A DNA stretch of 64,000 nucleotides. Origin: Microglena sp. YARC. Its lineage: Eukaryota > Chlorophyta > Chlorophyceae > Chlamydomonadales > Chlamydomonadaceae. The translations under genes were made by a program, and so were the position numbers. The stretch is taken from contig CM039463.1 of NCBI GenBank assembly GCA_022414725.1, forward strand, positions 27,428,003 to 27,492,002. Direction: 5' to 3'. Below, piece by piece: positions 6,963-64,000 of this stretch (the first letter of the stretch is position 1; every line of letters starts with the position of its first letter). The notes under the pieces were generated by a model. It saw nothing but the letters and a program-made list of their open reading frames with translations, had not been told where the DNA came from and made no database searches.

Positions 6963-9471
6963 ATGGAAAATAACAGTGTGTTCGAGGCTTCGGACTCGGG
7001 CGTTGAGTTTGGATCGGCAGTTGACGCATCGCTTATCAAGTTAGCGGAGACCTTGCAGACCAAGACCAAGCAAGCCCCCGACAAGAACTTCGTGCAGTCT
7101 CTGTTAGTGGCTGGTGCAGGTGCTGAATCGAATGGGGGGATTACCCCACTCAGCCTTGGAGATTGGCCGGGAATCTCTGTCCAAACCTTGCCTTGTTACC
7201 CATTGTCAATGTAGCCTCTGACTAGATTAATGGTGCCCAGAACTAATTAAGCTGAACCAATACTTCCATGCTAGATGTGCTTGCATCTCCAGACAAGGGT
7301 GTGTACTAGGTGGGGGTAACTGGAAGGAGCATGCCAGTGCGACCATTTTCAACTTTCAGATGGTCTTTGCTGCATGTCACATGCCCAGTCAAAACACATA
7401 ATCAGTATGTCACAGCCTTGCATGGGCTCGTCAGACCTCCAGCCTGCGCTCTACTACTGTTTGTTTGGGGTTTGTTGCACAATATTTCATCTTCACTGCA
7501 GATTATTCATCACTCCCAGCAGCTGACATGGCTATAGAGGCCCTGGCTCTGATACTAAACTTGCTTGCTAGATGGCTCACCTTTTTTGCATAGCTATCCT
7601 TTTCAGCTACGAGCAGCAGCTTCTAGGCAGTCCCCCTGACTGGCTATTCAGCCAAAACCGATACAATCTAGTGCACTTTGAAGCTGACACAACTAGCTTT
7701 CCTGTACTGTTGACATCTTGGGGCTTGGCCCCGTGGTGGAATCTATAAAAAAAATCAGACGGCCATGAAGACTCCTAGAAGTTGTGGAGCGGGCTTGTCT
7801 TGGGTCATCTATGGCCTGTCTATGACAATAATGTAATGTTATGTAATTTAATTTTGTCATCTGATTCACAGCCCTGGGGTAGTGTAAAGCTTATAGCCAT
7901 TCAGCGGATGATTTGGATTTGGGTTGTCAACACTTCGAACGTCGTAGTTTGTACCTCGAATTTCAGAATTTGGCCTGAGAATTCTGACATATTGGCCTTA
8001 GAATGAAGAATTCTGAGAATTTCAGAGAATTCTGAGAATCGTCGGAAACTTGGCCTGACAAAGTGGAGGGACAAACTTCTCACCTACGAGTATAAATTTA
8101 TGCGATTGAGCTGGTAAGTATACTTGCCATACCCAAATCCAAGTCATCCGCTGATTTGCCATACAGCTTAATGGTTCAGACCATGGATATTAAAAAAAAA
8201 AAACATCTTCCAATTACAGCCTGTTACATGTTTTTCAGCCAATTGTTGGCTGCTCACCGTCTTCCAAGTCCAATTCCCCCTGTGCGATACCCACAGAAAC
8301 CAGGGAGCATACAAATGCCTTCCAATTCCAACTTGTTATATGTTTTTTCAGCCAACTTTTGGGCTGTCACCAGGGTACTACAAAGCGCGCGCGGCAGCGC
8401 GATTTCGCGCTCGCTTTCTGAGCCCCTCTGCGCGTTTCGCGCAGTTTTTTCAACCCTCTGTGGGCGCAGCGCGCAGTTTTTGCGCTTTTAACACTACTAA
8501 GCGCTGACACATTTGACGTTTGTGCGCTTTAAGTGCTGGCCAATTTGACAAAATGTAGTGCCCTGGCTGTCACCCATCCCAGTGGCTGGCTTAGAAAGCT
8601 GTAACTTAGTAACACTGTGCCAAGATAGATTACCCTGGAATGATGGCAAGGTTGAGAAGTATATGTTTCTGGTTACCGTCTTCCAATTCCAATTCCTTCT
8701 GTGCGATACCCACATATATCCTCAGATATCCGCAGATATCCTTAGATACCCATATATATCCTCAGATATCCTCAGATACCCATATATATCCTCAGATATC
8801 CGGAGAAAACAGGGAGCACACAAAGTGGCCGAGATAGTTGAAAGACCTGTCCAGGTCCCCAACTGCATCATCTTGTCCATATGTTTTCTTTCCCGCTGCA
8901 AGCCTGTTGCTATAACTTTGGCCGGGTAGCAAGCCAGGGGAGCTGTCGAGAAGCTGCTGTTGGTAGCTGAAAAGAAAAAACAGATGTTGTCATGTTCCAC
9001 CACCACCACACCACCACCACCACTACCATCACCACCACCAGCACTACCACTACCACCACCACCACCACCACTACCACCACCACCACCACCACCACCACCA
9101 CCACCACCACCACCACCACCACCGCCATCAAATGTCCAGATGTCCAAGCCCGGGATGAGAATGGCTGCACCCCCCTGCACACTGCTGCCTACTGGGGCCA
9201 AGAAGAGGTGTGTACCATGCTGCTTTCGCATGGGGCTGATCCAAACGCTCGCAACAAACACCAAGAGACTCCCCTGCACCTGGCTTCAAAGTGGCCCTAC
9301 GACAAGGTGGTGGATGTGCTGTGCGCGTCCGGCGCAGATTTGGACGCTAGAAACAAGAAAGGCAGGACAGCACTACATACAGCAGCCCTGTTCTGCAGGA
9401 GGACTGTGATTGAGAGACTCATTAAAGCTGGTGCGTACCTAGGACTCCCCTCTCTCCATCTGAACTACCCC

Positions 9472-9503
<32 letters not shown>

Positions 9504-12500
9504 GTTCTGCAGGAGGACTGTGAATTAGAGACTAATTAAAGCTGGTGAGTGCCTAGGTCTACCCTATCTCCATATCTCCTACCCCCCCACCCCCCCCCCC
9601 GCCCCCCCCCCCACACACCATCACACACACACACGTCCCCTGCTCCCCATCTCTCCCTCCTGCACCTAACAGAACACAAGGCGTTATTTCTTAATGAAAA
9701 TTGCAAGCATCTCTTGTCCGACCTCCTCCATTGACCTTGGGGTGTAGGGGGTGGAGCTGGTGCTCGCTTAGGTAAATCCTAACATAACAGAGGGCGTTAT
9801 TTCTGAATGAGAGTTAAAAGCATCCCTTGCCCCACCTTTTGCTGCTGACCTTGGGGTGTAGGGGGCAAAGCTGCTGCTTGCCTAGGTTAGGCCTAACAGA
9901 AAACAAGGCGTTAGGCGGAAGTTGCCCCCCCACCTAAGTTTAGGGTGTTAAGGGTTAAGCGGTTCAGGTTTTGATGCAAAGGTTTAGGGTTTCTATTGTT
10001 TTAGGGTTTAGGGATGAGGTAAGTGGGGGCTAACTTAGGTGGCGACTATCTTCTCCCTACCACCCCCATCCCCACCCACACTCCCACCCTCACCCTCACC
10101 CTCACCCTCATCTTCACCCCCACCCCACAGGCTCTGCTCTCAGTGCTGTTGACACTAGCCTGTCCACTTCGCTCCATCTCCATCTTCGCCCTCCCCCCCC
10201 CCCCCCTTCCCCCCCCCCTCACCCCCCCTCACCCTCACCCTCACCCCCCCCCAGGCTCTGCTCTCAATGCTGTCAACACTGGCCTGTCCACTCTGCTCAC
10301 CCCCCCCCCCCCCTCCCCAATCTCACCCTGACCCCCACCCCACCCTCACCCCCACCCTACAGGCTCTGCTCTCAATGCTGTTGACACTGACCAGTCCATT
10401 CCGCTCTATCTTCATCTTCGCCCTCCTCCCCCCCCCCCACCACACCCCCTCACCCTCCCCACCCTCCAGGCTCCTCTATCAATTCTGTTGACACAGGCCT
10501 GTCCACTCCGCTCCATCTTCAACTTCGCCCTACCCCACCCCCACCCTCACCTTCACCCCTCACCCTCACCCCCACCTCCACCCCACCCCAAAGGCTCTGC
10601 TCTCAATGCTGTCGACGCTGGCCTGTCCACTCCGCTCCATCTCCATCTTCGCCTACCTCCCCCACCCACCCCCACCCCACCCTCACCCCCCACACACAGG
10701 CTCTGCTCTCAATGCTGTCGACACTGGCCTGTCCACTCCGCTCTATCTCCATCTCCGCCCTACCACCCCCACCCCACCCCCACCCTCACTCTCACCGCCA
10801 CCCTCACCCCCACCCCACAGGCTCTGCTCTCAATGCTGTCGACACTGGCCTGTCCACTCCGCTCCATCTCCATCTTCGCCCTGGCAATACCGCTGACAAG
10901 GACGTCATACAACTGTTGGTGGGCTTTGGTGCGGCGCTGGATTCCGAAGACGCCGCTGGCCAGACGCCCTTCAACCTGGTCCCCAACCCACAGACTCTAA
11001 CACTTTACGTGGTACAGGAGGGGCTGATCGGTGCGATGTCGCAGATGATCAAGTGTGGTATCAACCTAGACAAAATGGACGCTGATGGGTTGACGCCTTT
11101 GCACCTGGCAACGTATGTCAACAACGCAGAAATGGTACGTTGCGCCTGGCCGAGCTGCTTTATTAGGGCGAGAGAGTAGTCCAGGAGGGGCTGATTGGTG
11201 TGATGTTGCAGATTATCAAGTATTCATGTGTGGCATCAACCTAGACAAAATGGATGCTGATGGGTTGACACCTCTGCACCTGACAGCGTATGTCAACAAC
11301 ACGGAAATGGTACGTCGCGCCTGGTTGCGCTGTTTTATTAGGGCGACAGAGTAGTCCAGGAGGGGCTGATTGGTGTGATGTTGCAGATTATCAAGTATTC
11401 ATGTGTGGCATCAACCTTGACAAGATGGACGCAGATGGGTCGATGCCTCTGCACCTGGCAGTGTATGTCAACAACGCAGAAATGGCACGTTGCGCCTGGT
11501 AGCGCTGTTTTATTAGGGCGAGAGGGTAGTCCAGGAGGGGCTGATTAGAGCAATGATGCCGATGGTCAAGTATTCATGTGTGGCCTCTGCGCCTGGCAGT
11601 GTATGTCAACAACGCAGAAATGGTAAGGTGCGTTATTTTAATTTAATTTAATTTAACTAGTACGGTAGCCCGTGTGGCCGACACACATCACCCCCACCCC
11701 AATCATAATAGGGTGCCCATGGGGCTGGGTTACATAATGGGCTACACATATGCCCTCACCTCCACCCCTCTCATAAACACTGTCACCATGTTTCCCCCAC
11801 TTCAAATGCTGACGCATCTCCCCCCCCCCCCCCCACCCACCCACCCACACAAACAGTCCCACACTGCCCTAACATCGACCCAGGCCCAATCTCAATTTTG
11901 CCTCACCCCTGTACCCGCCAACACACACGTACTTCCCTGCTTCTCCGTTCCCATTAATCTGATCTTCCCTCGGCCACTTTAGCAGATGGGCTTAACAGAA
12001 GCGATTATGATGTTTCCAGCTGAGTTCGAAATCGCGCAGACGTTTGGACGTTTCGTCAGACGACGGGGAAATGCGAGGACTCATGGAAATTTCAAACGAA
12101 CTTCTGCCCAGTTTCAGACGCAGCTTAAAACACCGGAATTGCGCAAAAGCAAAGCTGCTTACCTTCTCTTCGCGCATAGATAACTGGTTGAGCGTGCAAG
12201 CTGTTTCCCGAAAGGGCCTTCGTTCGGTCAACTCTGTCACGCACTCGCTACAGCTCAGCGCGAAAATAACCGTATCGTTGCAGGGTTGCAGGGAGTGGTG
12301 TGGTGTGTGTGGGGGAAGATCTTGAAGAGGTATTGCACGCGGTGCAAGGAGCACGCAGCAAGAAGGAAGTCGGAAGTCGGAAGAACGTCACAGGGTTGCA
12401 GGAACTTAGATCGTGCAGAGATACCATGAGCCGTGCGAGTGTCTTAGCTCGCAGCAAGATGAATGTATCAATAGAGCCTGCAGAAAGGCTGGCTAATGGA

Positions 12501-15500
12501 AGTCAACTACCTCCAATCACGAATCAGGCGATGTGATAGCGAATCAGGCGATGTGAAAGCATAGTGAGATGACGAATGTAATGTTGAGATGAAGAATCAA
12601 GTGCGCATGCGTGAGCCAAGTGAAAGTCAAGGGCCAGCCGAATCATGAGCCGAAGTGAAAGTTCTGGAGCATGAGCCGCAGGTCGCTCCGTGAAGAAGCA
12701 ATACACTGAAAACTATTATTCCGAGCGCCATGCAAAGCGATATGAGGGTCAGCAAATGACCTCCGAGGAGAGGATCTCACTCATTTCATCGCAATTCACT
12801 GCAGTCACAGTATGGGAGGCAGTTGTGGACATGGAAAGAGCGCGCGTGGATAGCTTAGCGCATCTGCCGTTTCGGTAATTGAAAATTTTGCTGGGCGAAG
12901 ACTTGGGTGTACAATCGGTTGCAAGTCGGTTGCAAGTCGGTTACACTTCGCACGCCCATGGCACGTGGGTACGCGATGATGACACCACCACGACCGCGAC
13001 CACGACCATGATTTCTTTATACGTATAGATTTCTGTTTTATTAGGGCGAGAAGAGCTTTTGAGCTACAAGTGGAGACAAACAAGTACATGTTCTAGTAAA
13101 TTGCCTGTGTGGCCGTTGGCCACAGCTGTCAGGATGTACCCAGCAAAAACGATGTTGTTAGCCACACCTGTCAGAATGTACCCACACCCACACCCACCCT
13201 TCCTCCTCAGTCCATCCCCCCCATCCCTCCTTCTTCCCTTTCCTCCCCCCCCCCCCCCCCCCCCCTCTCCTTCCCCCAGCACCAATCACACCACCATCGT
13301 TGCCAATTACCCCCCCCCCCCCCCCCCCGCCACCACTGCTCTGCCTCTCCAGACTCGTTGCCTGTTCACAGCTGGAGCCCGGGCCAACGTGCTGACCCCC
13401 AACAACCTATCCGCTGAGCTCAGCTTGAGTGGCTACGACAGCCTCAAAATGAGTTCTAAAGTCCTTGATGGGGAGCGCTCCACCAACAACAACCACACCA
13501 CCACCACCACCACAACCCCCCTCACCACACCACAACCACCAATCCCCCCCCCACCCACCCACCCCACACAGACCCCACCCCCACCAATCATCCCCCTTCC
13601 CCCCCGCCACCACCGCCCTGCCCCTCTTCCAGACTCGTTGCCTGTTGAAGGCTGGAGCCCGGGTCAACATACTCACCCCAAAATCCCACCACCACCACCC
13701 ACCACCACCACCAACCACACCAACAACAACCACACCAACAACAACCACACCACCACAAACCACACCAACTCCACCAATCATCCCCCCATGCCCCCCCTCC
13801 CCCCCCCCCGCCGCCCCTGCCCTCCTCCAGACTCGTTGCCTGTTGAAAGCTGGAGCCCTGGTCAACGTGCTGACCGCCAAAAAACTATCTGCCGACCTCA
13901 GCTTGAGTGGCTACGACAGCCTCAAAACGAGTTCCAAAGTCGTCGATGGGGAGCGCTCCACCACCACCACCACCACCACCAACCACACCACCACCAACCA
14001 CACCACCACCAACCACACCACCACCACCAACAACCTCTACTCACCCTCCACCCCGCCTCCACCGCCCTGCCTATCTTCCAGACTCGTTGCCTGTTGAAAG
14101 CTGGAGCCCGGGTCAACGTGCTGACCCCAAAAAACCTATCCGCTGACCTCAGCTTGAGCGGTTACGACAGCCTCAAAATGAGCTCAAAAGTTCTCGACGG
14201 GGAGCGCTCCGCTCTTCACTTTGCAGCCGAGTGCGCCTCCACAGAGGTGCTTGAGGCGCTCATCCAGTCAGGCGCCCGCGTGAACCAAGCAAGTGAGTGT
14301 GGCATGACACCACTCCATGTTGCGGCGTGGCACAGGAAGCTTGAGGCCGTCAAAGCGCTGTTAAAGGCCAAGGTGAGCACTAGGGTATTTCCAAGTGCTG
14401 CCTTTTTGAGCCTCACTGCGCGTTTCACGCAGTTTTTTGCAACCCCCTGTGGGCGCAGCAAGCAATTTGTGCGCTTTTTGCACTACAAAGCGCAGATTAG
14501 TTTTTCCTCAGGTCACTTGGCTCAGGTCACTTGGCTCAGGTCACTTGGCTCAGGTCACTTGGCTCAGGTCACTTGGCTCAGGTCACTTGGCTCAGGTCTC
14601 TTGGCTCAGGTCACTTGGCTCACGTCACTTGGCTCAGGTCACTTGGCTCAGGTCACTTGGCTCAGGTCACTTGGCTCAGGTCACTTGGCTCAGGTCACTT
14701 GGCTCAGGTCACATGGCTCAGGTCACTTGGCTCAGGTCACTTGGCTCAGGTCACATGGCTCAGGTCACTTGGCTCAGGTCACTTGGCTCAGGTCACATGG
14801 CTCAGGTCACTTGGCTCAGGTCACATGGCTCGGGTCACTTGGCTCAGGTCACTTTGCTCAGGTCACATGGCTCAGGTCACTTGGCTCAGGTCACATGGCT
14901 CAGGTCACTTGGCTCAGGTCACTTGGCTCAGGTCACTTGGCTCAGGTCACATGGCTCAGGTCACTTGGCTCAGGTCACTTGGCTCAGGTCACATGGCTCA
15001 GGTCACTTGGCTCAGGTCACTTGGCTCAGGTCACATGGCTCAGGTCACTTGGCTCAGGTCACTTGGCTCAGGTCACATGGCTCAGGGCACTTGGCTCAGG
15101 TCACTTGGCTCAGGTCACTTGGGTCAGGTCACTTGGCTCAGGTCACTTGGGTATTTGAAAAAAAAGATGAAAATAATTTCACCCCAGGAGGTGGGTCTCC
15201 CTAAACAGACCAGCGACACCGAGGATAAAGTTTGACTGGCGTTGCCACTCCTACGAAAGAGTACGCGCACTTAGGTATAGGGTATGGCTAAGGTGGGAAC
15301 TTGGGTCAGGTCCTGTCATGCATGGGTGTAATACCTCCCGTGCACTCCCGCACAACACCGCAACCCACCCAACCCTCCGCCAGGCTGCCTGTACCAATGA
15401 GGTCCTGGCATGCAAAGACATACCCATAGTACGGCCCAGTACCATGCAATACATTGTATGTGCAACCCCTGCAAGACACTGTGTGCCCCTTTCACGTAGA

Positions 15501-18500
15501 CTCCCTCTTCATACTGCACAGGCTGACATCCATTTAAAGGTGAAGGTCAATGGCATGACCCCACTGCATTACGCAGCCCTAACACAAACGGGCTCCCTCA
15601 CACAAAGACATACCCATAGTACAGCCCAGAACCATACAAGACAGTGTTTGTGCAACCCCTGCAAGACATTGTTGGCCCCTTTCATGTAGACCCCCTCTCT
15701 CCCTCCTCCCTCTCCCCCTCCTCCCTTTCCCCCCCTCCCCCTCCCCCCCCCCCCCCCCCTTCCCTCCGCCCAAGACACTGTATGCCCCTTTCATGTAGAC
15801 CCCTCTCTCCCTCCTCCCTCTCCCCCTCCTCCCTTTCCCCCCCCCTCCCCTTCTCCTCCGCCCCAAGACACTGTATGCCCCTTTCATGTAGACCCCCTCT
15901 TCTTACTGCACAGACGGACATCCATTTAAAGGTGAAGGTCAATGGCATGACCCCACTGAATAGGCAGCCTTTACACAAGCGGGCTCCCTCACGCAAAGAC
16001 ATACCCATAGTACGGCCCAGTACCATACAACAATACATTGCTTGCGCAACCCCTGCAAGACGCAGTATACCCCTTTCATGTAGGATAGCACTCTATACAG
16101 CCTTTGCTCCTTCGAGCTGGCAGTTCCACGTGGTACGCCACGCCGATGTACTGATGTAAGCATTAGACTTACGGTATTGAGTGCTATGCTTTCATGTAGA
16201 CCCCCTCTTCATACTGCGCAGGCGGACATCCATTTGAAGGTGAAGGTCAATGGCATGACCCCACTGCACTAAGCAGCGCGCAACACACAGTACTGTACTG
16301 TCCTTCATGTAGACCCCCTCTCTCCCTCCCCCCGCCCCCCCCCCCTTCCCTCCTCCCAAGACCTGTACGTCCCGTCCATGTAGACCCCCTCTTCATACTG
16401 CACAGGCTGACATCCATTTTTAAAGGTGAAGGTCATGGCATGACCCCACTGCATTACGCAGCCCTAACACAAACGGGCTCCTCACGCAAAAGACATACCC
16501 ATAGTACGGCCAGTACCATACAAAACAATACATTGCTTGCGCAACCCCTGCAAGTCACTGTCCGCCCCCTTCATGTAGACCCCCCTCTCTCCCTCCTCCC
16601 TCTCCCCCTCCTCCCTTTCCCCCCCTCCCCCCCTCCTCCCTCTCCCCCCCCCCCCCCTCCTCCTCCCTCTCCCCCGCCCCCCCCCCTCCTCCTCCTCATC
16701 CTTCTCCCCCCCCCCCCCCCTCCTCCCTCTCCCCCCCTCCCCTCCTCCTCCTTCTCCCCGCCCTCCTCCCTCTCCCCCCCCTCCTCCTCCTCTCCCCCCC
16801 CCCCTCCTCCTTCTCACCCCCCTCCCCCCCCCCCCCCCCCCCCAAGACACTGTATGCCCCTTTCATGTATACCCCCTTCTTCATACTGCGCAGGCGGACA
16901 TCCATATGAAGGTGAAGGTCAATGGCATGACCCCACTGCACTATGCAGCGTTCAACACAAGCGGGCTACCCTCCATCGTGGCCCTTCTGATTAGCCATGG
17001 TGCCAAGATAGAGGAAAGAACGCGGGAAGGATGGACTACCTTGCAATTAGCAGCCAAGGTGGGCTGCGTTCATTACAGGTGGTGTGTGGTGTGGTGTGTG
17101 GTGTGGTGTGGTGTGGTGTGGTATGATGTGGCATGGTGTGGTGTATAAACTACCTTCCAGTTAGCAGCCAAGGTGGGATGCGTTCATTGCAGGTGGTGTG
17201 TGGTATGATGTGGCATGGTGTGGTGTATGGAATACCTTCCAGTTAGCAGCCAAGGTGGGCTGCGTTCATTGCAGGTGGTGTGTGGTGTGGTGTGGTATGA
17301 TGTGGCATGGTGTGGTGTATGGACTACCTTCCAGTTAGCAGCCAAGGTGGGCTGCATTCATTGCAGGTGGTGTGTGGTGTGGTGTGGTATGATGTGGCAT
17401 GGTGTGGTGTATGGACTACCTTCCAGTTAGCAGCCAAGGTGGGCTGCATTCATTGCAGGTGGTGTGTGGTGTGGTGTGGTATGATGTGGCATGGTGTGGT
17501 GTATGGACTACCTTCCAGTTAGCAGCCAAGGTGGGCTGCATTCGTTGCAGGTGGTGTGGGGTGTGGTGTGGTATGATGTGGCATGGTGTGGTGTATGGAC
17601 TACCTTCCAGTTAGCAGCCAAGGTGGGCTGCGTTCATTGCAGGTGGTGTGTGGTGTGGTGTGGTATGATGTGGCATGGTGTGGTGTATGGACTACCTTAC
17701 AATTAGCATCACCACCCCACCATACCACCACACCACACCACGCCATGAGTGTATGTGGTGAGGCTAATGGTCTGGTAGTCCAGGTGGGCTACCTTCACTG
17801 CAGGTGGTGTGTGGTTTAGTTTGGTTTGGTTTAGTTTTGGTTTGGTGTGGTGTGGTGTGGTGAGGAGAGAACACGAAAAGGATGGACAACTTGCAATTAG
17901 CTACCAAGGTGGGCTACGTCTTCAGAATTTGTTTTGGCGGGGGCCCCCTTCCACTCCGTTGTCCGTTTGTGCGTCCGACCGACCGACCTATGACCGAGAA
18001 CGAAGCCTGACACGTCAGCCAACTGTCTTAAAGCTAACTGGCTTCGGTCAGCTCCATCGTTGCCACCTGTCGTTCCGTTGCCAACGCACTCCGCCGATTT
18101 TCCGCGTGTCTTGCAACGCTGCATAGGACTTGTCCTTTACAGAAAGGGGGTCTTCTGGTAGCGATCAGGGATTTGGTGCCTTTCAAGGTTGGGCTCCTGG
18201 TAGTGATTTGGCGGGGGGGTTGGGTGTTGGGGCCGAGGTTCGAGTCTCATGGTAGCAGAAGGTTTGGCCAAAACAGTTTCTCGTGTAGCAGTCGCTAATG
18301 TAATTTAGTGGAAATCAAATTTTAATGGAATTTTAATGGAAATCAAAGCCAAGGTGTGCTTCGTTTATGCACCCTGTATGTGCTCACTATTTGTTTTTGC
18401 GACGCTTCGCAAATTGAGTGATCCAGTGCAACCCCAGTGCAACGCGCTGCCCCCCGAACACCGCAGAGCTCGAAGCACGGAGCCTGGGGGATTCGGGGGG

Positions 18501-32410: not shown

Positions 32411-32474
32411 TGTGCGGCATGATATCAGATAAGGTGATCGGAGATAGATGTCTAATCGCTCCTCATCCTGGGAT

Positions 32475-45524: not shown

Positions 45525-45660
45525 CCGCAATTTATGGGGGTTCAGTTTACCAGTGATTGTTTTGTATACAGCCCTTCCTAATCCATTTTTGAACCCCTTT
45601 TCGTGATTGCAACTTCTTGGGGTTCAGTTTATCAGTGATTGTTTTGTATACAGCCCTTCC
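45480..45660 (+). repeat. tandem copy of the gene 2 coding end
   Basis: The last coding bases (CCTAATCCGTTTTTGAACCC, CTTTTTTGTGA) and the first bases after the stop recur at 45575-45660 (CCTAATCCATTTTTGAACCC, CTTTTCGTGA), followed by GGGGTTCAGTTTATCAGTGA in both. The period is about 85 bp. Confidence 0.9.
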
Positions 45661-48009: not shown

Positions 48010-48384
48010 GCTCTTGGGCTCTTTAGCAAGTGCGTAGGTTAGACATGCACTGGTATTTGTTGTTCGTCTTTCCTTGTCGCCCTATCATGTACAGCGAGTT
48101 GCCTCCTGAAACATATAATTATCATAAAGCACTCATTCGCCCTAGTAGCCAAGTTACTATGTTTTTGATATCTAAGCTGCTTTTGTCACCGATGGTCATT
48201 GGGCTGGTCGCTCCTCGAGCAAACTGTGTCTTGTGCTTACGGATTTATGGCTCGGCTAAAAGCTAGGGTTGTGCTCCCGCAGATAAAACCCCAGATGCGC
48301 GTCTCTACTTCTGACTTGGATTTGGACGTTTACCTATTTGTAGACCCAGTTACTACTCCGACGAAGGATATTTCGTTCTCCGAT

Positions 48385-51300: not shown

Positions 51301-54300
51301 TGAAGGCTTGCTGTCGGAGGATGATGACCAGGTGTGCTGCTGTTGTGATTCTTAATGATAGTGGTAATGATGATGACGATGATGATGATGATGATGATGT
51401 GTGCTGCTGTTGTGATTCATAATGGTAGTGGTAATGATGATGACGAAGTTGATGATGATGATGATGATGATGTGTGCTGCTGTTGTGATTCATAATGATG
51501 ATAGTGATGATGATGGCAAGGACGATGATGGTGGTTCTGTGTCGGGGTAATGATGGTGATGATGTGTTGAACTGACATGCTCTCAATCAACTTGACTTTG
51601 GGCTTTTTTATAATTATAACTGGTCGTTGGTGAGGATGCCCCATAAGCTTTCACGGGCAAAAGTGCAATCGTATGCTATGCACTGGTGGCATCCACAAAC
51701 AGCTCTTATACATTCTACCAACCTCTCTTTTTGGGGCTACGTGTAGCAGCTTCTAGGCTGCTCTGTTTCCGTGTCCTCGGGTGAAACCTGAAGACAGCTA
51801 GAGTCTCTGATAGCTGACATGACGAGCATTCCAATGTAGCTGAACGCTTTGAGCTTGCCCCAGTGGCTGGCTAGTGGAGCTGCCTAGATGCAGGTACACG
51901 TAGCCCCCCCCCCTCCCCCCCCCCCCCCCCCCCCCCCTCTTCCCCCGCCCCCCATCTCTCCCCACAGCCCCGCCCCCAAGGTATCCTGTCCAACTTTAAA
52001 TAACTCAATAATGCACCTTGTGACGAGGCGCGAGGTTGAGGGGGCCAGCCTGTTTGCTTGCACTGGGTCCAACCACCAATCCTGCTCAACTACCTCACCT
52101 TGCTTGCTCACTTCCAGGGGCTGGATACCCAGATCGGGCACCTTGTCAATAGCGCACTGACCCGGCTTGGCGGCGTGCTGAGCAATGTGGCAAGAATGGC
52201 TGCTGGGAAGCCCTCACGACTGCTGATGTTTTTGAATCCTGTCCAGCTACCTCACCTTGCTTGCTCACTTCCAGGGGCTGGATACCCAGGTCAGGCACTC
52301 TATCCAGAGTGCACTGACCGGGCCGGTTAAATTATTTTCAGCCGAGCCCTACTTGTACACTCTGAACAGTGATAACCTTCACCCTCATACGGATATCCTG
52401 TCCAGCTACCTCACCCTCCTTGCTTACTTCCAGGGGCTGGATACCCATGTGGGGCACCTTGCCCAGAGTGCACTGACTGGGCTTGGTGGCATGCTGAGCA
52501 ATGTGGCAAGAATGGCTGCTGGTGTACCCTCCAGCATACCTTCTGGTGTATCTGATGATGTGCATGCGCTGCAAGCAGCGGCCACAAGGTCACTGACAAA
52601 CGTTGCAGGCCTGGGGACAAGACTGGAGAGGAAATTCGAGGTAGGTGGTCCAGTTGAGGAAGGTGGTTCAGGTAGATGGTGAAAAAATCAGGGAGGTGGT
52701 TCAGAAATCAGGTAGCTGGTGTATCTGATGATGTGCATGCTCTGCAAGCAGTAGCCACAAGGTCACTGACAAACGTTGCAGACCTGGGGACAAGACTGGA
52801 GAGGAAATTCGAGGTAGGTGGTCCAGTTGAGTAAGGTGGTTCAGGTAGATTGTCAAAAAATCAAGAAATCAGATGGCTGGTGTATCTGATGATGTGCATG
52901 CTCTGCAAGCAGTAGCCACAAGATCACTGACAAACGTTGCAGACCTGGGGACAAGACTGGAGAGGAAATGTTAAGGTAGGTTGTCCAGTTGAGGAAGATA
53001 GTTGAGGAAGGTGGTCAAAACATCAGGTAGGTGGTGTATCGGATGGTGTGCACGCTTGTAAAGCGGCAGCCACAAGATCACTGACAAACAATGCAGATAT
53101 GTGAACAAAACTGGAGAGGAATTTTTGACATTTTTCCAATTTATTTTTCCAGATAAATTAATTTTGTTGGTAGGTGGTTGGCCCAAGACAAGCCCTAAGA
53201 CATTGTAATGAAAACGTCCCTTGTCTGAAAGCTGACATGACAGGCACTCCAATGCAGCTTCAAGTTTTGTGTTTTACCCAGTGCCTGGCTATTTGAGCTG
53301 GTGGGAAGCTACCATGAGTTGCCCCAAAATGGAACACTGAAGGTCTGAGTCCCTCAACAGCGCCTGCTTGAAAATTGCACCTTGAAAATTGCATGCCTGC
53401 TTGAAAATTGCACCTGCAGATGCCGCCGAGCATCAATAACACTAATATATGGCCCAGATATATATCATCTCTACAGGGACTCAGTCCTTTAGTGTTTCTT
53501 TTTTAGGCTACGTCTGGCAGCTTCCAGCCAGCTCCACCAGCCAGCCACCTGGCCAATCCCAAATATTTCAGCTGCATTCAAATGCCCTTTATTTCAGATT
53601 TCAGACGCACTAGCCAGCTTCCAGTTTGGCCCAATGAAAGGGTTCAGGAGCTGCCTAGAAGCTGCTATGCGTAGCCCAAAAAAGACTGTCCTTGCATCAG
53701 TGTTTTTCTTTTCAGCTATAAGCAGCAGGTTCTAGGCAGATCCCCTAACTGGCTATTCAGCCAAAGCTGACGCAACCTAGTGTGTCTAGAGGCTGACAGA
53801 ATACACTGTAGAAAACTGTCGAAATCTCGGGAGTTGTCCTAGTGGCTGGCTCAGGGAGCTGTCTAGAAGCTGCTGCTCGTAGCTGAAAAGGAAAAACGAT
53901 GCCTTGCATGTGCCCATCTTCAACTTCTAGTTAACAATATCCCAATCACTATACTTGTTTTCAGTTTGATTCTTGGAATTTCTCAGGGTGATGCTTTCAG
54001 ATCTGGAAAATCCTGATTATGTCGAGTTTGTAACAAGCGTCGCATTTGATGTCGAATTTCGGCGTTGATCCATCCACCGATCAGTCAGACACAGCGTCTG
54101 CTGAAAAGAAAACTATGACTTGCATGTGCCTAACTCTGCCTCCTGGTTGAAAGTATCCCTGGGGGGGGGGGGGGGGGGGGATTGTGTGTGTATGGTGGTG
54201 GTGGCGGTGGTAGTGCTGATGCAGTTTCTGTCCTTGCATGTGCCCATCTTGGCCTTCTGGTTGCAAATATCCCCAGTGTGTGTGTGCGTATAGTGGTGGT

Positions 54301-57300
54301 GGTGGTGGTGGTGGTGACACAGTGTATTTACTTGCCTGTGCCCATTTTGGCCTTCTGATTGGAAATATCCCTGTGTGTGTGTGGTGGTGGTGGCGGTGGT
54401 GGTGGTGGTGACTCAGTGTCTGTCCCTGCATGTGCCCATCTTGGCCTCCTGGTTGTAAATATCCTGGGGGGGGGGGGGGGGGGGGGGGGGATGTTTGTGT
54501 GTGTATGATGGTGGTGGTGACACAGTGTCTGTCCTTGCATGTGCCCATCTTGGCCTTCTGGCTGACAATATCCCAACCACCATACTTGCTTGCAGTCTGC
54601 CAGCCTGGCTGCTTTCGGATTGCTTGGTGGCATGGCTAATCAGTTCACCGGGACACTTTCTTTGCAAGATAGAGAGAAGCCAGACCCAGCAACTTTTGAA
54701 GACTTCTTTTACCTCTACGAAGGTAGGCTGCAATGGGTCACCCTCTTCTTTTACCCGTCTGACTCATCCGATTGGTGGTGGTTGTGATGGTGGTGGGTGG
54801 TAGTTGTGGTGGTTGGGGTTTGCCTGCCGGAAGTTCACCGGGACACTTTCATTGCAAGATGGAGAGAAGCCTGATCCAGCAACTTGTGAAGACTTCTTTT
54901 ACCTCTACGAAGGTAGGCTGCAATGGGTCACCCTGTTATTTTGCCCGCCTGGCTCATCCAATTGGTGGTGGTTGTGATGGTGGTGGGTGGTAGTTGTGGT
55001 GGTTGGGGTTTGCCTGCCGGAAGTTCACCGGGACACTTTCTTTGCAAGATGGAGAGAAGCCTGATCCAGCAACTTGTGAAGACTTCTTTTACCTCTACGA
55101 AGGTAGGCTGCAATGGGTCACCCTGTTATTTTGCCCGCCTGGCTCATCCGATTGGTGGTGGTTGTGATGGTGGTGGGTGGTAGTTGTGGTGGTTGGGGTT
55201 TGCCTGCCGGAAGTTCACCGGGACACTTTCTTTGCAAGATAGAGAGAAGCCTGATCCAGCAACTTTTAAAGACTTTAAAACGTGAGCAGAAATATATTTC
55301 AAACCGAAATAAAAGAAGACAAAGATAATTTACAAAAAGAACAAGAATAATTGGTTCTTTTGGATTTTGTAACAAATACAGGGTCCAAGCCCTGCGACCA
55401 TCTTTTACTTCAACAAAGGTAGGCTGCAATGGGCCACCCAGTTCTTTTACCCGCCCGAATCATCCGCTTGGTGTGTTGCTAGTGTCTGCTTTCTACACTG
55501 GGTTGGGCACTTCGATGTCAATAGTCACACGTTCTGCTGGTGTGCTGCTTGTGTCTGCTTTCTACACTGGGTTGGACTCTCCAATGTCAATGGTCACACA
55601 ATCCTTTTGAAGACTTCTTTTACCTCTACGAAGGTAGGCTGCAATGTGTTCTTTTACCTGCCCGACCTTCTTTTACCTGCCCGGCCGCCATCCTTGTCTG
55701 CCCGACCGCCATCTTTCTTTTGGGTGCCCGACCTTCTCTTGCCTGCCCGACCCTCTTTTACCTGCCCGACCTTCTTTTACCTGCCCGACCGCCATCCTTG
55801 TCTGCCCGACCGCCATCTTTCTTTTGGATGCCCGACCTTCTCTTGCCTACCCAACCTTATTTTACCTGCCCGACCTTCTCTTGCCTGCCCCACCTTCTTT
55901 TACCTGCCCGACCGCCATCCTTGTCTGCCCGACTGTCATCCTTCTTTTGCCTGCCCGGCCTCCTTTTGCCTGCCAGACTGCCATCCTTCTTTTGCCTGCC
56001 CGACCATCCGCTTGGTGGTGGTTATGGTGGTGGGTGGTAGTGGTGGTGGTAGTGGTTTGCCTGCCCGACTCATCCGCTTCGTGGTACTTGTCATGGTGGT
56101 GGTGGTTGGGTAGTAGTCGTGATGGTGGGTAGTAGTGGTGGTGGTTTGCCTGCCCAACTCATCCGCTTGATGGTGGGGGTGATGGTGGTGGGTGGTGGTG
56201 GGGGTGGGGGTGGTTTGCCTAACCAACAACAACAACAACCAACAACAACCACCAGCAACGACAACCAGCAACCAACGACAACAACAATCACCACCATCAC
56301 CACCACCACCACCACGGTCTGTAGGGCATGCTTTGTGCGAGGAGTTGGAGGGACTGTCTAATGAGAGTGCTCGCTCATGCAACAAAGCACGCTCAATGAT
56401 GGAAGGTAGGGAGGGATTGACAAAACTATGAGGAGGGATTGAGGGAGGGATTCTAAAAGTTGCAGGAGAGATTGACAAAAGTTGAAGGCGGGATTGACAA
56501 AACTATCGGGAGGGATTGAGGGAGGGATTATAAAATTTGCAGGAGAGATTGACAAAACTATCAGGAGGGATTGATAGAGGGATTATAAAAGTTGCAGGAG
56601 AGGTTGACAAAACTATCAAGAAGGATTGAGGGAGGGATTTACAAAAGTTGCAGGAGGGATCGACTAAACTATCAGGAGGGATTGAGGGAGGGATTCTAAA
56701 GGTTGCAGGAGGGATTGAGAAAACTATCAAGAGGGATTGAGGGGGGGGGATTCTAAAAGTTGCAGGAGAGATTGACAAAACAATCAGGAGGGATTGAGAG
56801 AGGGATTGACAAAACTTTCAGGAGGGATTGAGGGAGGGATTGTCAAAAGTTGCAGGAGGGATTGAGGGAGGGATTATAAAAGTTGCAGGAGAGATTGACA
56901 AAACTGTCAGGAGGGATTGAGGGAGGGATTTACAAAAGCTGCTGGAGGGATTGAGAAAACTATCAGGAGGGATTGAGAGAGGGACTGACACAACTTTCAG
57001 GAGAGATTGGGGAAGGGATTGACACAATGTTTAGGAGAGATTCAGGGAGGGATTGGCACAGCTTCTTCTCTTTCAAACTTCTGGCCATCCTGGACATCGT
57101 ATGATACAGTGTCTGCTCATCTTGCCCGAATCACTGACCTACACTGCCACTGCCTTGCAACGCTATGTACTGCACTACACTGCCTTGCAACACCTTAAGC
57201 TGACTTGCAATGCTGGTCACTGCCCTACACTAAAACGTCTTCTCTTTTAAACTTTTGGCCATCGTCGACATTGTATGATACAGTGTCTGATCATCTTGCC

Positions 57301-60300: not shown

Positions 60301-63208
60301 GCCGGTGCCATTCCCCCCTTGGCGGCATTGTAGTCTGCCTACACTCTACTGGATTCCAGTGGAGTGCAGGCCGACTACAATGCCACCAAGGTGAGAACGG
60401 TACCGGCAGATGCCTGCCGGTCTCCCCATTCGCTTTTTCCCTTTAAGCGAGAGATCTAATTGATCTGTATACATCATCACCGAGTCTTCCTTTTTTTCTC
60501 GTTTTTAAACTTCTTCCTTGATTTTAAGTTTTTCCGCCCCCCCCCCCCCCCCCTCGTTCTCTGGGCGCTGCAAGTGCTAGGCTCATTGAGCTATTTCCCA
60601 GATGAATTGCGCAAAATGGTGTTTGTCATTTGAACTAATTAAGTTTGTTATTTTATACCGACACTTCATCCTTCTCTCGGTGTTGCATGTGGTAGGCAGC
60701 AGGGTACTACACAGCGCGAGCGGCAGCGCGTTAACAGGCATTCTTCTTGAGCCCCACTGCGCGTTTTGCGCAGTGTTTTCAACCCCCTGTGGGCGCAGCG
60801 CGCAGTTTTGCGCTTTTTGCACTAGAAAGCGCCGACCAATTTGACGTTTGTGCGCTTTAAGCGCTGACCAATTTGACAAAAAGTAGAACCCTGGTAGGCA
60901 GAAGGAGCTGGATGGTGTTGTGCTCTGTTTTTTTCCGTGCGACGCTGGAGGTCCAAAAGTTCTGTGCCAAAAGTTTATTCAAGCTGATCCTGAGCTGATC
61001 AATTAATTCCGTTTATATGGAGTATATGACTGAGTATAGGCAGTATATGAGGATATTTGTTTAGCATTTTTCTGATTTTTCTGAGCACCTCATTTAGGGG
61101 GGGGGGGGGGGGGGGGGGGGGCCTCCTCAGGTTTTTGAGGCTTGGCGTTTGCAGCTTTTTTTTTACTTGTGTGCAACGTGTCTCAAATTGAACGTCTCTG
61201 TGTGACCCCAGTGCAATGCGCTGCCCCCGAACCCCGTGGAGCATGAAGCGTAGAGTCCGGGGGGCATTTCTGGCTATTTTGTTCAGACCCATGTGTCACC
61301 ATGCAGCAATGGAATGGTAACGTGTTGTACACAAAGAGACAGTATTGTCTTGGCGTCGTAACTAATGGAGCCCGTCATGTGGAAAACCTCAAACCAGTCA
61401 AGGGGGGTTGCATCCATTTGGTGGTTTTAGTCCAACGCACGCACACACTACCACTACCACCACCACCACCACCCACAACACCCTCCCAATACCACCAACA
61501 ACACCAACACCAACACCCACCAACAACACCCACCAACAACACCCACCAATAACACCCCACCACCCCCCCCCCCCCCCCCCCCCCCCGGGACCCCCCACCC
61601 CACCCCACCCACCCCCACACACACACACGCACACATGGACCCCGAACACGCCCCTTACCTGTCCTCCTACCGCAGGAGCTAGGCAGAAGGAGCTGGATGA
61701 TGCCTGTGCATCCTTAGCAGCAGTTTTTTTTTTTTGCACATCCTCCACACAACCCGCACACCCCAAAACCCCAAACCTTCCACACACTCTACAAACCCCA
61801 CTCCCTGCAATCACCTCCCACATCTCCCACGCACACCAGACCCACACACACCCAACACACCACACCATGCATCCCCCCCCACACACCGCATACCACACAT
61901 CCCCCCACACACCACATACCACATACCACACATCCCCCACCACGCACCACAAATCACCCCCCCACACACACACATACCCCCCTCACCCTCCACCCCCCTC
62001 AAATCACCCCCACCACCACCACACACACACCTCCAACACCCCACACAGGAGCTAGGCAGAAGGAGTTGGATGATGTCCTGGCGTCCTTAGCAGCAGTGTT
62101 CAATGCCCAGATCAAAGCTGGTGAGCTGCAAAACCCAAATGAAAGTGCTGGTAGCACTAGCAGCAGTAGTATGTCAACTTCTGGGGATGCAGTTGGCTCT
62201 GGGGACTCAGTTAGCCCATTGGTAACGCAACGTTACGCACCCATCTCCTATCTCTGCGAGGATAGCATATCTCGATCTGAAAATATGAAGGCCATGCTCC
62301 AGCGGGCTATGCAGCGCGTCGTAGTTGCTTACTTGGAGTCTCAGAAAGATGCTGGTCAGTCTCAGAAAGATGCTATGGAGGATGGCAAAGAAATTGTAGA
62401 AGCTCCTCCTCATGGAGAAAGTGTGACATCTGACAAGGCATCTGACATGACATCCGACAAGACTGATGCCCCACAGGCTAAGACTGGTGACACTGATGAG
62501 CCTGTTGCGGGGGGCAAAGAGGACAGGCCAGGGCCTGCACCCTCTGAGGACCGCAAGGCAGCTGGCGCTGCTCTTGCCACAAACACATCTGGCGCTGGTA
62601 TGGATGGGGATGAGTTTGAGATGGTGGATGCGGATGAGGGCGGAGATGACTTGGCCTCTCCCGTTTTGTCGGCTCTCAGCCAGGTGCGGAAGCAGAGCTC
62701 GAAGCGGTTGGCGGAGATTTGTGCGGCCCAGATAGAGCTCTTGCTAGACCTGGGCTTGAGCCTTGTCGCCCCGTCTGCCAAGCTGACGCGCTCAGATCTA
62801 GGGGTCACCTGGCCTGACAAGGCGGAGGCCCAGGCTATTATGCTGAAGAAGCAGGCCCATCGCATGGCGACAGATGTCGAGGCTGTAGCCGCTGCCTTCA
62901 AGGCGACAGTTGACTCCCTTCTCACGGAGCCCTCGGAAGCAGACAGGCCAGACGATGATGTAGAGGGCGAGGGAAGTGAAGATCACGAGAAAAAAACAAG
63001 CCCCTTCATGCTGCTGCCGGAATCGGAGCTTGGACCCCTGTCGGTCCTGGTATCCTCCATGTCCCGTGAAATCGAGGCTGTGGGAAGCAATGCCAGTATG
63101 AAGGTGATGGAGGGCTATCGTGGGCTTCTGTACGCCATTTTATTGCGATCAATAGCGTCAGAAGGACCAGAGGCTCCTGGAGCAGTGCAGCCGGTTACGT
63201 CAGCTTAA
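48385..63208 (+). CDS. gene 3: FAM114 (DUF719) family protein, probable Golgi/Rab2-linked
   Basis: Seven exons: 48385-49438, 50535-50729, 51267-51331, 52434-52640, 54596-54722, 56325-56405, 62049-63208; 2,889 nt, 962 aa, TAA stop. All phases agree. Residues 1-330 are acidic and disordered (DDEIDDWAALDPSDEDEDK). AWGWGGSWGLGAISRLKQVA (about 330-350) is the hallmark WGW segment of FAM114A1/A2. Then GLDTHVGHLAQSAL, FGLLGGMANQF, TFEDFFYLYEGHALCEELEG and LSNESARS match the conserved middle, and KELDDVLASLAAVFN, VRKQSSKRLAEICAAQIELL and the helical C-terminus match the end. Animal relatives bind Rab2 and localise to the Golgi. The frame is open upstream to 48199, with earlier in-frame ATGs at 48199, 48247 and 48295; I chose the ATG that opens the acidic segment. 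The protein is longer than the roughly 500-600 aa animal proteins because of the disordered N-terminus and an inserted acidic segment in exon 7. Confidence 0.82.
49553..49739. mobile_element. MITE family B, intact (187 bp)
   Basis: Ends are CACTGTTTTCTTTCGGCT and, inverted, CACAGTTTTTCTTTTGGGCT. The subterminal GCAGCAGCTTCTATGCAGCT pairs with GCCTAGAAGCTGCTGCTC. An 8-bp flank, GTCTTATC at 49545-49552 and TTCTTATC at 49740-49747, matches at 7 of 8 positions. It lies in intron 1 of gene 3. Confidence 0.82.
50025..50534 (+). repeat. tandem copies of the gene 3 exon 2 5' edge
   Basis: Four copies with acceptor (GCAG or CCAG then GTGCTGTCAGTGATTTCCGT, CACCTGACTGG) begin near 50033, 50142, 50274 and 50403; the intact exon starts at 50535. 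Spacers read CTCAAGTGTTTCTTGGTTTA and TGACAGTTTATTTGCTTGGC. The copies keep the AG acceptor and 30-45 nt of exon. Confidence 0.93.
50900..51262. repeat. GACCCGCACTTGATCCACCC-type minisatellite
   Basis: 11-12 bp subunits (CACTCGACCCG, CACTTGACCTG) are arranged in 66-bp higher-order units in intron 2 of gene 3, up to the exon 3 acceptor (CAG at 51264-51266). Confidence 0.9.
51325..51565 (+). repeat. GATGATGA array after gene 3 exon 3
   Basis: (GATGAT)n alternates with GTGTGCTGCTGTTGTGATTC (three copies). The first copy of that piece begins at the exon 3 donor, so the array includes the exon's outer flank. Confidence 0.85.
51725..51900. mobile_element. MITE family B, degraded copy
   Basis: The left end is GGGGCTACGTGTAGCAGCTT, the interior is GATAGCTGACATGACGAGCA and GCCCCAGTGGCTGGC, and the right end is GAGCTGCCTAGATGCAGGTA plus CACGTAGCCCC, which runs into a poly-C tract. 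Confidence 0.7.
52065..52433 (+). repeat. tandem copies of the gene 3 exon 4 5' edge
   Basis: Two upstream copies with acceptor (CACTTCCAG then GGGCTGGATACCCAG) begin at about 52118 and 52275; the intact exon starts at 52434. Copy 1 reaches about 90 nt into the exon, codes for a near-perfect version (SALTRLGGVLSNVARMAAG) and then stops matching. It has no donor. Confidence 0.92.
52545..53115 (+). repeat. tandem copies of the gene 3 exon 4 3' edge
   Basis: The exon end (GTATCTGATGATGTGCATGC ... GACTGGAGAGGAAATTCGAG, donor GTAGGT) is followed by three copies ending near 52817, 52974 and 53115. The first copy keeps the donor, the second has AAATGTTAAGGTAGG, and the third is eroded. The period is about 150-175 bp. 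Confidence 0.92.
53490..53689. mobile_element. MITE family B, copy next to another
   Basis: Left: AGTGTTTCTTTTTTAGGCTA, CGTCTGGCAGCTTCCAG. Right: GGAGCTGCCTAGAAGCTGCT, then GCGTAGCCCAAAAAAGACTG. It lies immediately before the copy at 53698. A third, truncated copy is at about 53205-53330. Confidence 0.72.
53698..53901. mobile_element. MITE family B, intact (204 bp), hAT-like
   Basis: Ends CAGTGTTTTTCTTTTCAGCT and, inverted, CATCGTTTTTCCTTTTCAGC. Perfect 8-bp flank CCTTGCAT at 53690-53697 and 53902-53909. Subterminal inverted repeats are AAGCAGCAGGTTCTAGGCAG and TGTCTAGAAGCTGCTGCTCG. No coding capacity. The 8-bp duplication and CA.TG ends suggest mobilisation by a hAT-type transposase. Confidence 0.85.
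54120..54595. repeat. tandem copies of the flank upstream of gene 3 exon 5
   Basis: CTTGCATGTGCCCATCTTGG then CCTTCTGGTTG...AATATCC recurs about five times (near 53906, 54119, 54234, 54430 and 54535) with GTGTGTATGGTGGTGGTGG and poly-G spacers; the last copy runs into the exon 5 acceptor (CAG at 54593-54595). Confidence 0.85.
54640..55290 (+). repeat. 190-bp tandem array of the gene 3 exon 5 3' edge
   Basis: The exon end with donor (TTCACCGGGACACTTTCTTT ... TACCTCTACGAAG, GTAGGCTG) has copies ending at about 54912 and 55102 with an exact 190-bp step, and a fourth, decayed copy near 55215-55280. Two broken relatives are at 55400-55430 and 55604-55650. Copies keep the GT donor; spacer is GGTGGTGGTTGTGATGGTGG. 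Confidence 0.93.
55655..56324. repeat. CTGCCCGACC-type repeat and GTGGTGG/CAACAA tracts
   Basis: Units CTTTTACCTGCCCGACC and GCCATCCTTGTCTGCCCGAC fill 55655-56010, then GGTGGTGG and AACAACAACC tracts run to the exon 6 acceptor (TAG at 56322-56324) of gene 3. Confidence 0.88.
56400..57060. repeat. GGAGGGATTGAGGGAGGGAT-type array starting at the gene 3 exon 6 donor
   Basis: About 20 irregular units combine AGGAGGGATTGA, GGGAGGGATTATAAAAGTTG and CAGGAGAGATTGACAAAACT. The array begins with the donor sequence itself (GAAGGTAGGGAGGGATTGAC). Confidence 0.88.
57061..57470. repeat. three-unit repeat of about 180 bp
   Basis: CAAACTTCTGGCCATCCTGG ... GTATGATACAGTGTCTGCTC then TTGCAACACCTTAAGCTGAC recurs near 57075, 57248 and 57418. 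It lies in intron 6 of gene 3. Confidence 0.85.
57525..57737 (-). mobile_element. tRNA-derived SINE, head type 1, near intact
   Basis: On the - strand: AAAGGTCTAGTGGTAGACCA (box A, GGTC/GACC stem), AGTCGGGGGTTCGACTCCCC (box B and T arm), body GCAGGTCGTTGTCAACCGCG and ATGGTAGCTTGTC, tail ACGCCCCACAAGGCGTTATC ATTACC. The acceptor stem is not formed. Confidence 0.85.
58150..58300. repeat. short copy of the ATATTAGT dispersed repeat
   Basis: CACCAGAATTTTGAATTTAT, TTGAAAAACTAATATTATTG and CTAATATTAGTTGCTGTTCC match the two ends found at 4128-4195 and 5190-5212. Confidence 0.6.
58442..58860 (-). mobile_element. tRNA-derived SINE, head type 2, interrupted by a MITE
   Basis: Tail GTAATGATACCGTCTGGTAG at the left; head at the right read on - as ACGAATGGCTCAATGGTCCA (box A) and TGCGGGGATTGAATCCC (box B). 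The body is split at 58522-58733 by a family C element flanked by a perfect 8-bp repeat TTTACCTG. Removing the insert restores the body seen at 25195. Confidence 0.85.
58522..58733. mobile_element. MITE family C inserted in a SINE (212 bp)
   Basis: Ends CAGAGTTTCTTTTTCCG and, inverted, CAGTGTTTTTTATTTCAG. Perfect 8-bp target repeat TTTACCTG at 58514-58521 and 58734-58741. Interior, relative to other copies, is inverted: CGTCGCCATTCCGTC ... GCTGCCCCCCGACC. Confidence 0.85.
59330..60390 (+). pseudogene. decayed array of armadillo-type repeats in intron 6 of gene 3
   Basis: About eight tandem units of 128-129 bp. A 129-bp unit codes for 43 residues that read like an ARM repeat: NPKTQQLVASAGAIPPLV, ILLSTSTPASMQEHAALALA. 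The phrase GAIPPLV..L and QEHAALAL is the armadillo signature. Units of 128 bp have lost one base (ATTGTATCC against ATTGTTATCC), which breaks the frame between units. There are no splice joins to gene 3. It is probably a captured fragment of an ARM gene expanded as a minisatellite. Confidence 0.7.
60700..60893. mobile_element. hAT-type MITE, family A (194 bp)
   Basis: Ends CAGGGTACTAC and GTAGAACCCTG. Perfect 8-bp flank GTAGGCAG at 60692-60699 and 60894-60901. Interior as at 8371 (GGCAGCGCG, GTGGGCGCAGCGCGCAG, GCGCTTTAAGCGCTGACC). Confidence 0.9.
61165..61345. mobile_element. MITE family C copy
   Basis: TIR-like ends TGTGTGCAACGTGTC and, inverted, TGTGTACAACACGTT. Core GTGCAATGCGCTGCCCC, GAACCCCGTGGAGC and CAATGGAATGG. 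The target duplication is unclear. Confidence 0.6.
61440..62048 (+). repeat. CACACC/CACCAACAAC tracts with a copy of the gene 3 exon 7 5' edge
   Basis: Within CA- and C-rich DNA, 61672-61728 repeats the exon 7 start with acceptor (CGCAG, GAGCTAGGCAGAAGGAGCTG GATGATGCC ... TTAGCAGCAG) and then breaks off in a T run. The intact exon starts at 62049. Confidence 0.9.
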
Positions 63209-64000
63209 GACAGCCTTGCTGCTGCCGCAATACTGCCCCCCTACACTGGCCTTTAGTTTGGGTGTTCCAAAAGCAATGAAGGTGACGGGGTTCTAATAAG
63301 CGCTCCTGCACACCAATGTATTGTGATCAATCGCGTTAGGAGGACCAGACGCTCCTAGAGCAGTGCAGCCGGGTGCGTCGGGGTAAGACAGCCTTGCTGC
63401 TGCTGCAAGGCTACCCCCCTCCACAGGCCTTCAGTTTGGGTGTTCCAAAATTAACGGAGGTGATGGAGGGCTATCGTGGGCTCCTGCACACCATTGTATT
63501 GCGATCAATAGTGTCAGAAGGACTAGAGGCTTCTGGAGCAGTGCAGCTGGGTGCGTCGGCGTAAGACAGCCTTGCTGCTGCCGCAATACTGCCCCCCTAC
63601 ACTGGCCTTTAGTTTGGGTGCTCCAAAAGCTATGAAGGTGACGGGGGGCTAATAAGCGCTCCTGCACACCATTGTATTGCGATCAATTGCGTTAGGTGGA
63701 CCAGACGCTCCTAGAGCAGTGCAGCCGGGTCCGTCCGTCGGGGTATGACAGCCTTGCTGCTGCTGCAAGGCTACCTTCCTCCACATGCCTCTAACTTAAG
63801 TGTCCCAAAATCAAAGGTGATGGAGGGCTATCGTGGGCTCCTGCACACCATTGTATTGCGATCAATAGTGCCAGAAGGACTAGGGGCTCCTGGAGCAGTG
63901 CAGCCGGGTGAATCGGCGTAAGACAACCTTGCTGCTGCTGCAATGCTGCCCCCCTACACTGGCCTTTAGTTTGGGTGCTCAAAAAGCTATAAAGGTGACG
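63100..64000 (+). repeat. tandem copies of the gene 3 coding end and 3' flank
   Basis: After the stop (63206-63208), at least four more units of about 178 bp follow: GTGATGGAGGGCTATCGTGG ... TTGCGATCAATAGTGTCAGA ... CAGTGCAGCCGGGT, stop, GACAGCCTTGCTGCTG. Stop-context copies lie near 63385, 63562, 63745 and 63919, and the array runs off the window. It may include the true 3' UTR. Confidence 0.92.

Follow-up and report, generated by a model that had tools for sequence, protein, structure and literature searches.

Tandemly duplicated exon edges in genes of the green alga Microglena sp. YARC, probably reflecting widespread duplication filtered by purifying selection

The window analyzed here, a stretch of 64,000 nucleotides from the green alga Microglena sp. 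YARC (GCA_022414725.1, contig CM039463.1; C2:27428003-27492002 of an assembly comprising 568 Mb in 2390 contigs), contains genes in which the edges of exons recur several times in the neighboring introns. The initial annotation of this stretch held that ordinary minisatellites have no reason to be located so consistently at splice junctions, and considered a mutational process tied to splice-site or R-loop structure. The locus raises the question of whether the splice junction itself is a target of tandem duplication, or whether it is duplicated about as often as the DNA surrounding it.

Three genes were rebuilt in the window from reading frames and GT-AG sites, giving 26 exons (13, 6 and 7 in genes 1, 2 and 3, respectively), 23 introns and 46 splice sites (Table 1). 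The presence of GT or AG at all 46 internal splice sites was a requirement imposed on the models, and the starts of gene 1 and gene 3 were left unset. Each spliced gene maintained one frame with one terminal stop, corresponding to 2057, 930 and 1006 residues for genes 1, 2 and 3. In a Pfam domain search, the Ank domain was matched in single exons, the ArfGap domain extended across the spliced exons of gene 2 (2.7e-19), and DUF7798 was matched on exon 7 of gene 3 (1.1e-8). The end of exon 5 together with exon 6 of gene 3 gave a weak DUF7798 match, and gene 1 a TTC3/DZIP3 match, each below its cut-off. The last exon of gene 3, used as a protein query, had no relatives at E<=0.001 among 7996 scored candidates, a viral scan found no relative of exon 1 of gene 3, and the window contained neither an Rfam match at gathering score nor a tRNA. 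The last intron of gene 3 also harbors, at 59324-60354, about seven units of about 128 bp encoding armadillo-repeat sequence (Pfam Arm, 2.5e-19); as 128 is not divisible by three, the frame shifts between the units.

Table 1. Gene models and tandem arrays at exon edges, at coding ends and within an exon of the window
Feature	Position	Strand	Details
Gene 1	9133-32195		13 exons, N-terminus open; ankyrin repeats and weak TTC3/DZIP3 domain match
Gene 2	33860-45524		6 exons; ArfGap protein
Gene 3	48251-63208		7 exons, start not set; DUF7798
Donor array, gene 1 exon 1 (exon end 9430)	9388..9600	+	Unit 114 bp, 1 extra; TRF and copy list
Acceptor array, gene 1 exon 2 (start 10821)	10070..10882	+	6 extra, C-rich spacer
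Donor array, gene 1 exon 2 (end 11134)	11049..11632	+	Unit 175 bp, 3 extra
Acceptor array, gene 1 exon 3 (14082)	13340..14210	+	3 extra
Acceptor-edge copies, spaced, gene 1 exon 4 (16894)	15409..16940	+	4 extra
Donor array, gene 1 exon 4 (end 17058)	17022..17708	+	Unit 92 bp, 6 extra, plus 1 at 17885
Acceptor array, gene 1 exon 6 (20182)	19675..20225	+	5 extra
Acceptor array, gene 1 exon 8 (24165)	23766..24202	+	4 extra
Donor-edge copies, gene 1 exon 9 (end 26097)	26034..26504	+	2 extra, both without GT
Acceptor-edge copy, gene 1 exon 10 (27059)	26760..27077	+	1 extra
Acceptor-edge copy, gene 1 exon 12 (31454)	31188..31526	+	1 extra
Acceptor array, gene 2 exon 3 (36246)	35943..36294	+	Unit about 112 bp, 2 extra
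Acceptor-edge copies, gene 2 exon 4 (38975)	38180..39010	+	2 extra
3'-edge copies, gene 2 exon 5 (end 40741)	40682..41324	+	4 extra, all four without GT
Acceptor array, gene 3 exon 2 (50535)	50010..50565	+	4 extra; nearest identical over 50 bp
Donor array, gene 3 exon 3 (end 51331)	51320..51530	+	2 extra, exon side weak
Acceptor-edge copies, gene 3 exon 4 (52434)	52078..52522	+	2 extra
Donor array, gene 3 exon 4 (end 52640)	52543..53121	+	Unit about 173 bp, 2 extra
Donor array, gene 3 exon 5 (end 54722)	54642..55275	+	Unit 190 bp, 96% matches; more copies at 55396, 55609
Stop-codon array, gene 2 (CDS end 45524), no splice junction	45494..45664	+	
Stop-codon array, gene 3 (CDS end 63208), reaches window end, no splice junction	63101..64000	+	
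In-frame array within gene 1 exon 8	24294..24564	+	45 bp x 6

The copies of exon edges are genuine tandem duplicates. When at least 80% identity over 40 bases was demanded with gaps allowed, a copy was found near 19 of the 46 junctions, and 13 of the 46 were copied at 90% identity under otherwise equal conditions. Looser matching with at most 15 edits in 50 bases yielded 65 copies in the adjoining introns of 22 of the 46 junctions; these copies span the junctions, and the intact exon is the innermost one, as had been described from the sequence at first sight. Three weak junctions entered only at the looser threshold, namely the acceptor of exon 7 in gene 1 and, in gene 3, the donor of exon 6 and the acceptor of exon 7. 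In seven of the 65 copies, the exonic half was only 60 to 68% identical (four at the donor of gene 3 exon 6, one at the acceptor of gene 1 exon 7 and two at the donor of gene 3 exon 3). The copies also differ from each other, with an identity of about 86% over all 65. Both border types were spanned: among the 58 junctions of the inward walk described below, 8 edits in 40 bases gave 14 spanned acceptors and 10 spanned donors (of 29 each), and 6 edits gave 14 and 8. The TRF score of a junction array reached up to 1170. The innermost splice sites are presumably those in use, to judge from the continuity of frames and domains.

Those arrays on the list of the initial annotation that we examined were recovered, its exon numbers in gene 1 being higher by one than ours. 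Exon 2 of gene 1 (10821-11134) carries six extra copies at its 5' edge and three at its 3' edge, exon 4 (16894-17058) four and seven, several of the latter in a 92-bp step, exon 6 (from 20182) five, and exon 8 (from 24165) four; in gene 3, exon 4 has two extra copies on each side, and the 3' edge of exon 5 has four, two of which are in 190-bp register. The assertion that most exons are affected was borne out when counted by exon, as 16 of 26 had at least one duplicated edge on the basis of the junctions copied at 80% identity or more, although duplicated junctions are themselves a minority. Furthermore, the copies make introns longer. In the five modelled genes, 2 of 16 junctions were duplicated in introns below 900 bp and 22 of 42 in longer introns, a comparison in which cause and effect are inseparable because the arrays themselves lengthen introns.

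Do splice junctions carry more copies than the local density of arrays would produce? The answer depends on the null chosen. Against random positions in present-day introns, ungapped matching found 14 of 46 junctions duplicated with 15.8 expected (P 0.78), and gapped matching at 80% identity or more found 41% of the junctions versus 43% of random intron positions, or 39% after a complexity filter; this null is a lenient one, as intron positions are multiplied by every array. When intron positions were weighted by 1/copies, the expected share decreased to 0.18 (0.23 outside interspersed repeats, with a surely incomplete mask covering 19% of intron positions) versus 25 of 60 junctions in five modelled genes, a ratio of 1.8 to 2.3. 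Simulations of uniform duplication under the same weighting gave ratios between 0.59 and 0.94, and 1.43 when much foreign DNA was inserted. With a seed model applied to TRF arrays, 11 junction arrays were counted versus 6.0 to 7.4 expected (P 0.02 to 0.10), an undercount of junction arrays because TRF begins some of them past the junction. On the modelled genes, there was no excess over random positions and a 1.5 to 2.3-fold excess in the two other nulls.

We gave most weight to a further test because it is independent of copy number, in which we walked inward from untouched junctions to the first start of an array. Among 58 junctions, 24 were spanned, 27 were untouched with the first array beginning 10 to 440 bp inward, and 7 met none. 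The rate of first-array starts from untouched junctions was 0.0037 to 0.0046 per base, which, for units of 106 to 194 bp, predicted 19 to 34 spanned junctions of 58, and 22 to 24 were observed at two thresholds. The observed number lies within the predicted range, so that coverage of the splice site is roughly what the adjacent intron DNA implies. The view that a process at the splice site must drive the copies is not supported. The median unit was 162 bp in junction-spanning arrays versus 114 bp in the first interior arrays, as expected if longer units reach borders more often. What is left unexplained is the raised density of arrays within about 200 bp of exons, where they start at a rate of 0.005-0.010 per base versus about 0.001 beyond, that is, about 4 to 10 times more densely, the far rate being based on three events. 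Young insertions may dilute the middles of introns. In the window as a whole, 39% of intron interior positions versus 8% of intergenic positions were duplicated.

The periods of the arrays are informative about what survives. They were divisible by three in all 10 exon arrays, 14 of 48 intron arrays, 3 of 11 junction arrays and neither of the 2 stop-codon arrays. The in-frame exon arrays imply that duplications strike exons too and that only frame-keeping ones remain. Moreover, the stop-codon arrays of genes 2 and 3 repeat the coding ends into the 3' flank, which is the same edge effect without a splice site. The same kind of array thus occurs in exons and across stop codons, contrary to the notion that minisatellites would have no reason to be at junctions. 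In addition to the in-exon array in Table 1, others with a period divisible by three are located at 20237-20468, 24748-24897, 28213-28350, 44760-44909 and 45141-45340; these six of the ten sit in low-complexity protein regions.

The base composition of the arrays did not bear out the proposed R-loop drive. The R-loop model requires G-rich RNA. In a hand-drawn list of 22 junction arrays from the window and a protein-kinase gene downstream of it, eight had intron parts that were C-rich on the RNA strand and eight had G-rich ones. C-rich sequence tends to prevail in arrays on the acceptor side and G-rich sequence in those on the donor side, and the untouched junctions of the five modelled genes follow the same trend, with C-rich acceptor-proximal and G-rich donor-proximal intron sequence. 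This trend is a hint that splice signals, being of simple sequence, may act as seeds for slippage.

The pattern is common to unrelated genes, as was first noted within the window, and it was also found elsewhere in the genome. Two more genes were chosen by coding score or conservation before looking at repeats. At 80% identity, duplicated junctions numbered 5 of 8 in the downstream protein-kinase gene and 1 of 6 in a UBC gene, the latter with an additional, shorter acceptor copy seen by eye; the spliced proteins contain continuous PK_Tyr_Ser-Thr and UQ_con domains. In a six-frame search for the kinesin domain, in which 122 of the 325 candidates were scored, 128 matches were located at 118 exon places, and partial copies in tandem occurred at 8 of these. 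When the longest match was taken as the exon and two copy-copy pairs were excluded, the downstream copy shared the exon end and the upstream copy the exon start in all ten exon-copy pairs. A CCT gene (L041), picked for its overlapping matches and hence a biased sample, had one exon with its 5' edge copied upstream (76 bp, 91%) and its 3' edge copied downstream (228 bp, 91%, and 96 bp, 86 to 88%). The 64 CCT matches included three clusters with overlaps, of which this was the only one with exon-edge geometry; the other two did not share exon ends and were dropped as support. Altogether, the pattern was seen at independent places on C1, C2, C3 and C5.

Tandem-repeat cover ranged from 0 to 95% across twenty 10-kb stretches, five beside the window and 15 arbitrary ones on C1 to C5. 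Two loci contain long open frames in stretches nearly devoid of tandem arrays (L027, 3180-9067, - strand; L034, 3525-7596), which by appearance may be retroelement sequence; one frame from each gave no Pfam match, and domains were found in two of ten open frames from other loci submitted to Pfam. We also observed an intact psbA on several contigs, which marks a photosynthetic organism. Its protein matched best the D1 chain 6kac_A in the PDB, which is from Chlamydomonas, the chains ranking next being likewise of the green lineage. Further matches to the Photo_RC family, either partial or interrupted by stops, were located in L015, L016 and contigs C262, C841, C881 and C1798. The partial matches may be broken plastid copies, the intact ones being on other contigs.

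With a probability of roughly 0.74, we regard these arrays as exon-edge minisatellites of the kind termed 'mirages' in lancelets, which would originate from tandem duplication occurring widely and sieved by purifying selection. In genes of the nuclear genome, stretches of about 70 to 280 bp would often be tandemly duplicated. A duplication over a border between coding and non-coding sequence would leave the innermost exon intact, together with its splice site, and place the extra copies in the intron or the 3' flank, and selection would tolerate it because the innermost copy keeps the exon whole. A duplication wholly within an exon would survive only if the frame is kept. Junctions would then carry arrays because they are located in array-dense DNA, not as a target, and intron growth would be a by-product. 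Slippage or unequal exchange may be the mutational step, with splice signals of simple sequence perhaps providing the seed. Most likely, a splice-targeted process is not needed, since duplication and purifying selection cover most of the pattern.

It is possible, although unlikely, that exon ends themselves seed duplication within about 200 bp, through splice-signal sequence or transcription, such that introns grow from their ends with an occasional intron birth. Rather improbable, too, is a local process tied to transcription, splicing or splice-signal sequence that favors exon edges and drives intron growth. Such a process would account for the denser arrays next to exons, the excess over the deflated interior in the weighted test, the surplus of junction arrays in the seed model, the higher duplicated share of introns than of intergenic DNA and the opposite compositions of donor and acceptor arrays, and it agrees with the published finding that repeats are enriched toward the ends of introns in Chlamydomonas and Volvox. 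However, the splice site is covered no more than array starts inside untouched junctions predict, the same arrays occur in frame within exons and over stop codons, the arrays share no common G-rich RNA bias, and young insertions in intron middles, masked incompletely, can dilute the interior.

Far less probable is a reading in which the arrays record the birth of introns through tandem duplication of an exon segment with AGGT. An intron of the RdRp gene in potato was gained via a tandem duplication across an intron-exon border (PMC4974935), and such births have been argued for in the potato and lancelet papers. As in the alga, the duplicated segment in potato holds an intron end and an exon start, but there it gave rise to a new spliced intron, whereas the frames in the alga indicate that the copies stay within existing introns. 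Direct repeats flank intron 8 (25075-25869, 12 bp) and intron 9 (26098-27058, 10 bp) of gene 1 and are possible marks of recent intron gain or insertion. Yet these are the only two of the 23 introns that share at least 10 bp between donor and acceptor surroundings, the other 21 sharing at most 6 bp, and in introns with arrays at both ends, the two arrays look unlike each other by eye.

We deem it very improbable that a regulatory role, as decoy splice sites or as alternative exons, maintains the copies. GT or AG is intact in 53 of the 65 copies, and the dinucleotides are 90.8% identical versus 87.5% for the exonic and 84.1% for the intronic half, but this apparent difference is small and concerns the very point at which the match was anchored. 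Moreover, the site was lost in 12 copies, including all four of gene 2 exon 5, and stops break the frames of the copies in three-frame translations inspected by eye. An assembly error is scarcely credible: tandem repeats pose difficulties for assembly and this one is split into many contigs, but the copies have diverged from each other and similar arrays turn up at several independent loci.

Tandem duplication with purifying selection, as preferred here, has its closest known counterpart in the lancelet 'mirages', tandem duplications of intron-exon borders in Adh3, globins, troponin C and PGBD5, for which regular splicing and haplotype length differences have been reported (PMC3087553, PMC3902484). 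As described there, the lancelet units of 10 to 160 bp resemble those of the alga in spanning the 5' or 3' exon-intron border with diverged copies, many of which contain AG or GT, and in having the authentic exon edge beside the copies. In one assembly and at the level of DNA, the alga shares the sequence-based features of mirages, including spanned borders of both the 5' and 3' types, the intact innermost exon and the maintained frame. The lancelet accounts describe few genes, whereas 25 of 60 junctions in five genes are duplicated in the alga.

Among green algae, repeats in Chlamydomonas and Volvox are densest in introns, followed by coding sequence, and are more frequent near intron-exon junctions, with coding sequence favoring units of three and six bases (PMC3887541). 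The Microglena arrays are alike in their density in introns, the rise near junctions and the periods divisible by three in coding sequence. However, that genome-wide survey counted units of 1 to 50 bp, and its account, as far as we draw on it, does not describe exon-containing units. Our literature search, at the level of abstracts, found no exon-edge arrays described for any green alga among the retrieved papers. What seems to be new here is the frequency of the exon-edge arrays and their presence in a green alga.

A curiosity of a few lancelet genes is thus common among the genes studied here in a green alga, in which tens of similar, sometimes identical, decoy splice sites adjoin the real ones. 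Within a single organism, this makes it testable how the splicing machinery chooses the innermost among equal sites, and whether introns grow and arise in large part through tandem duplication.
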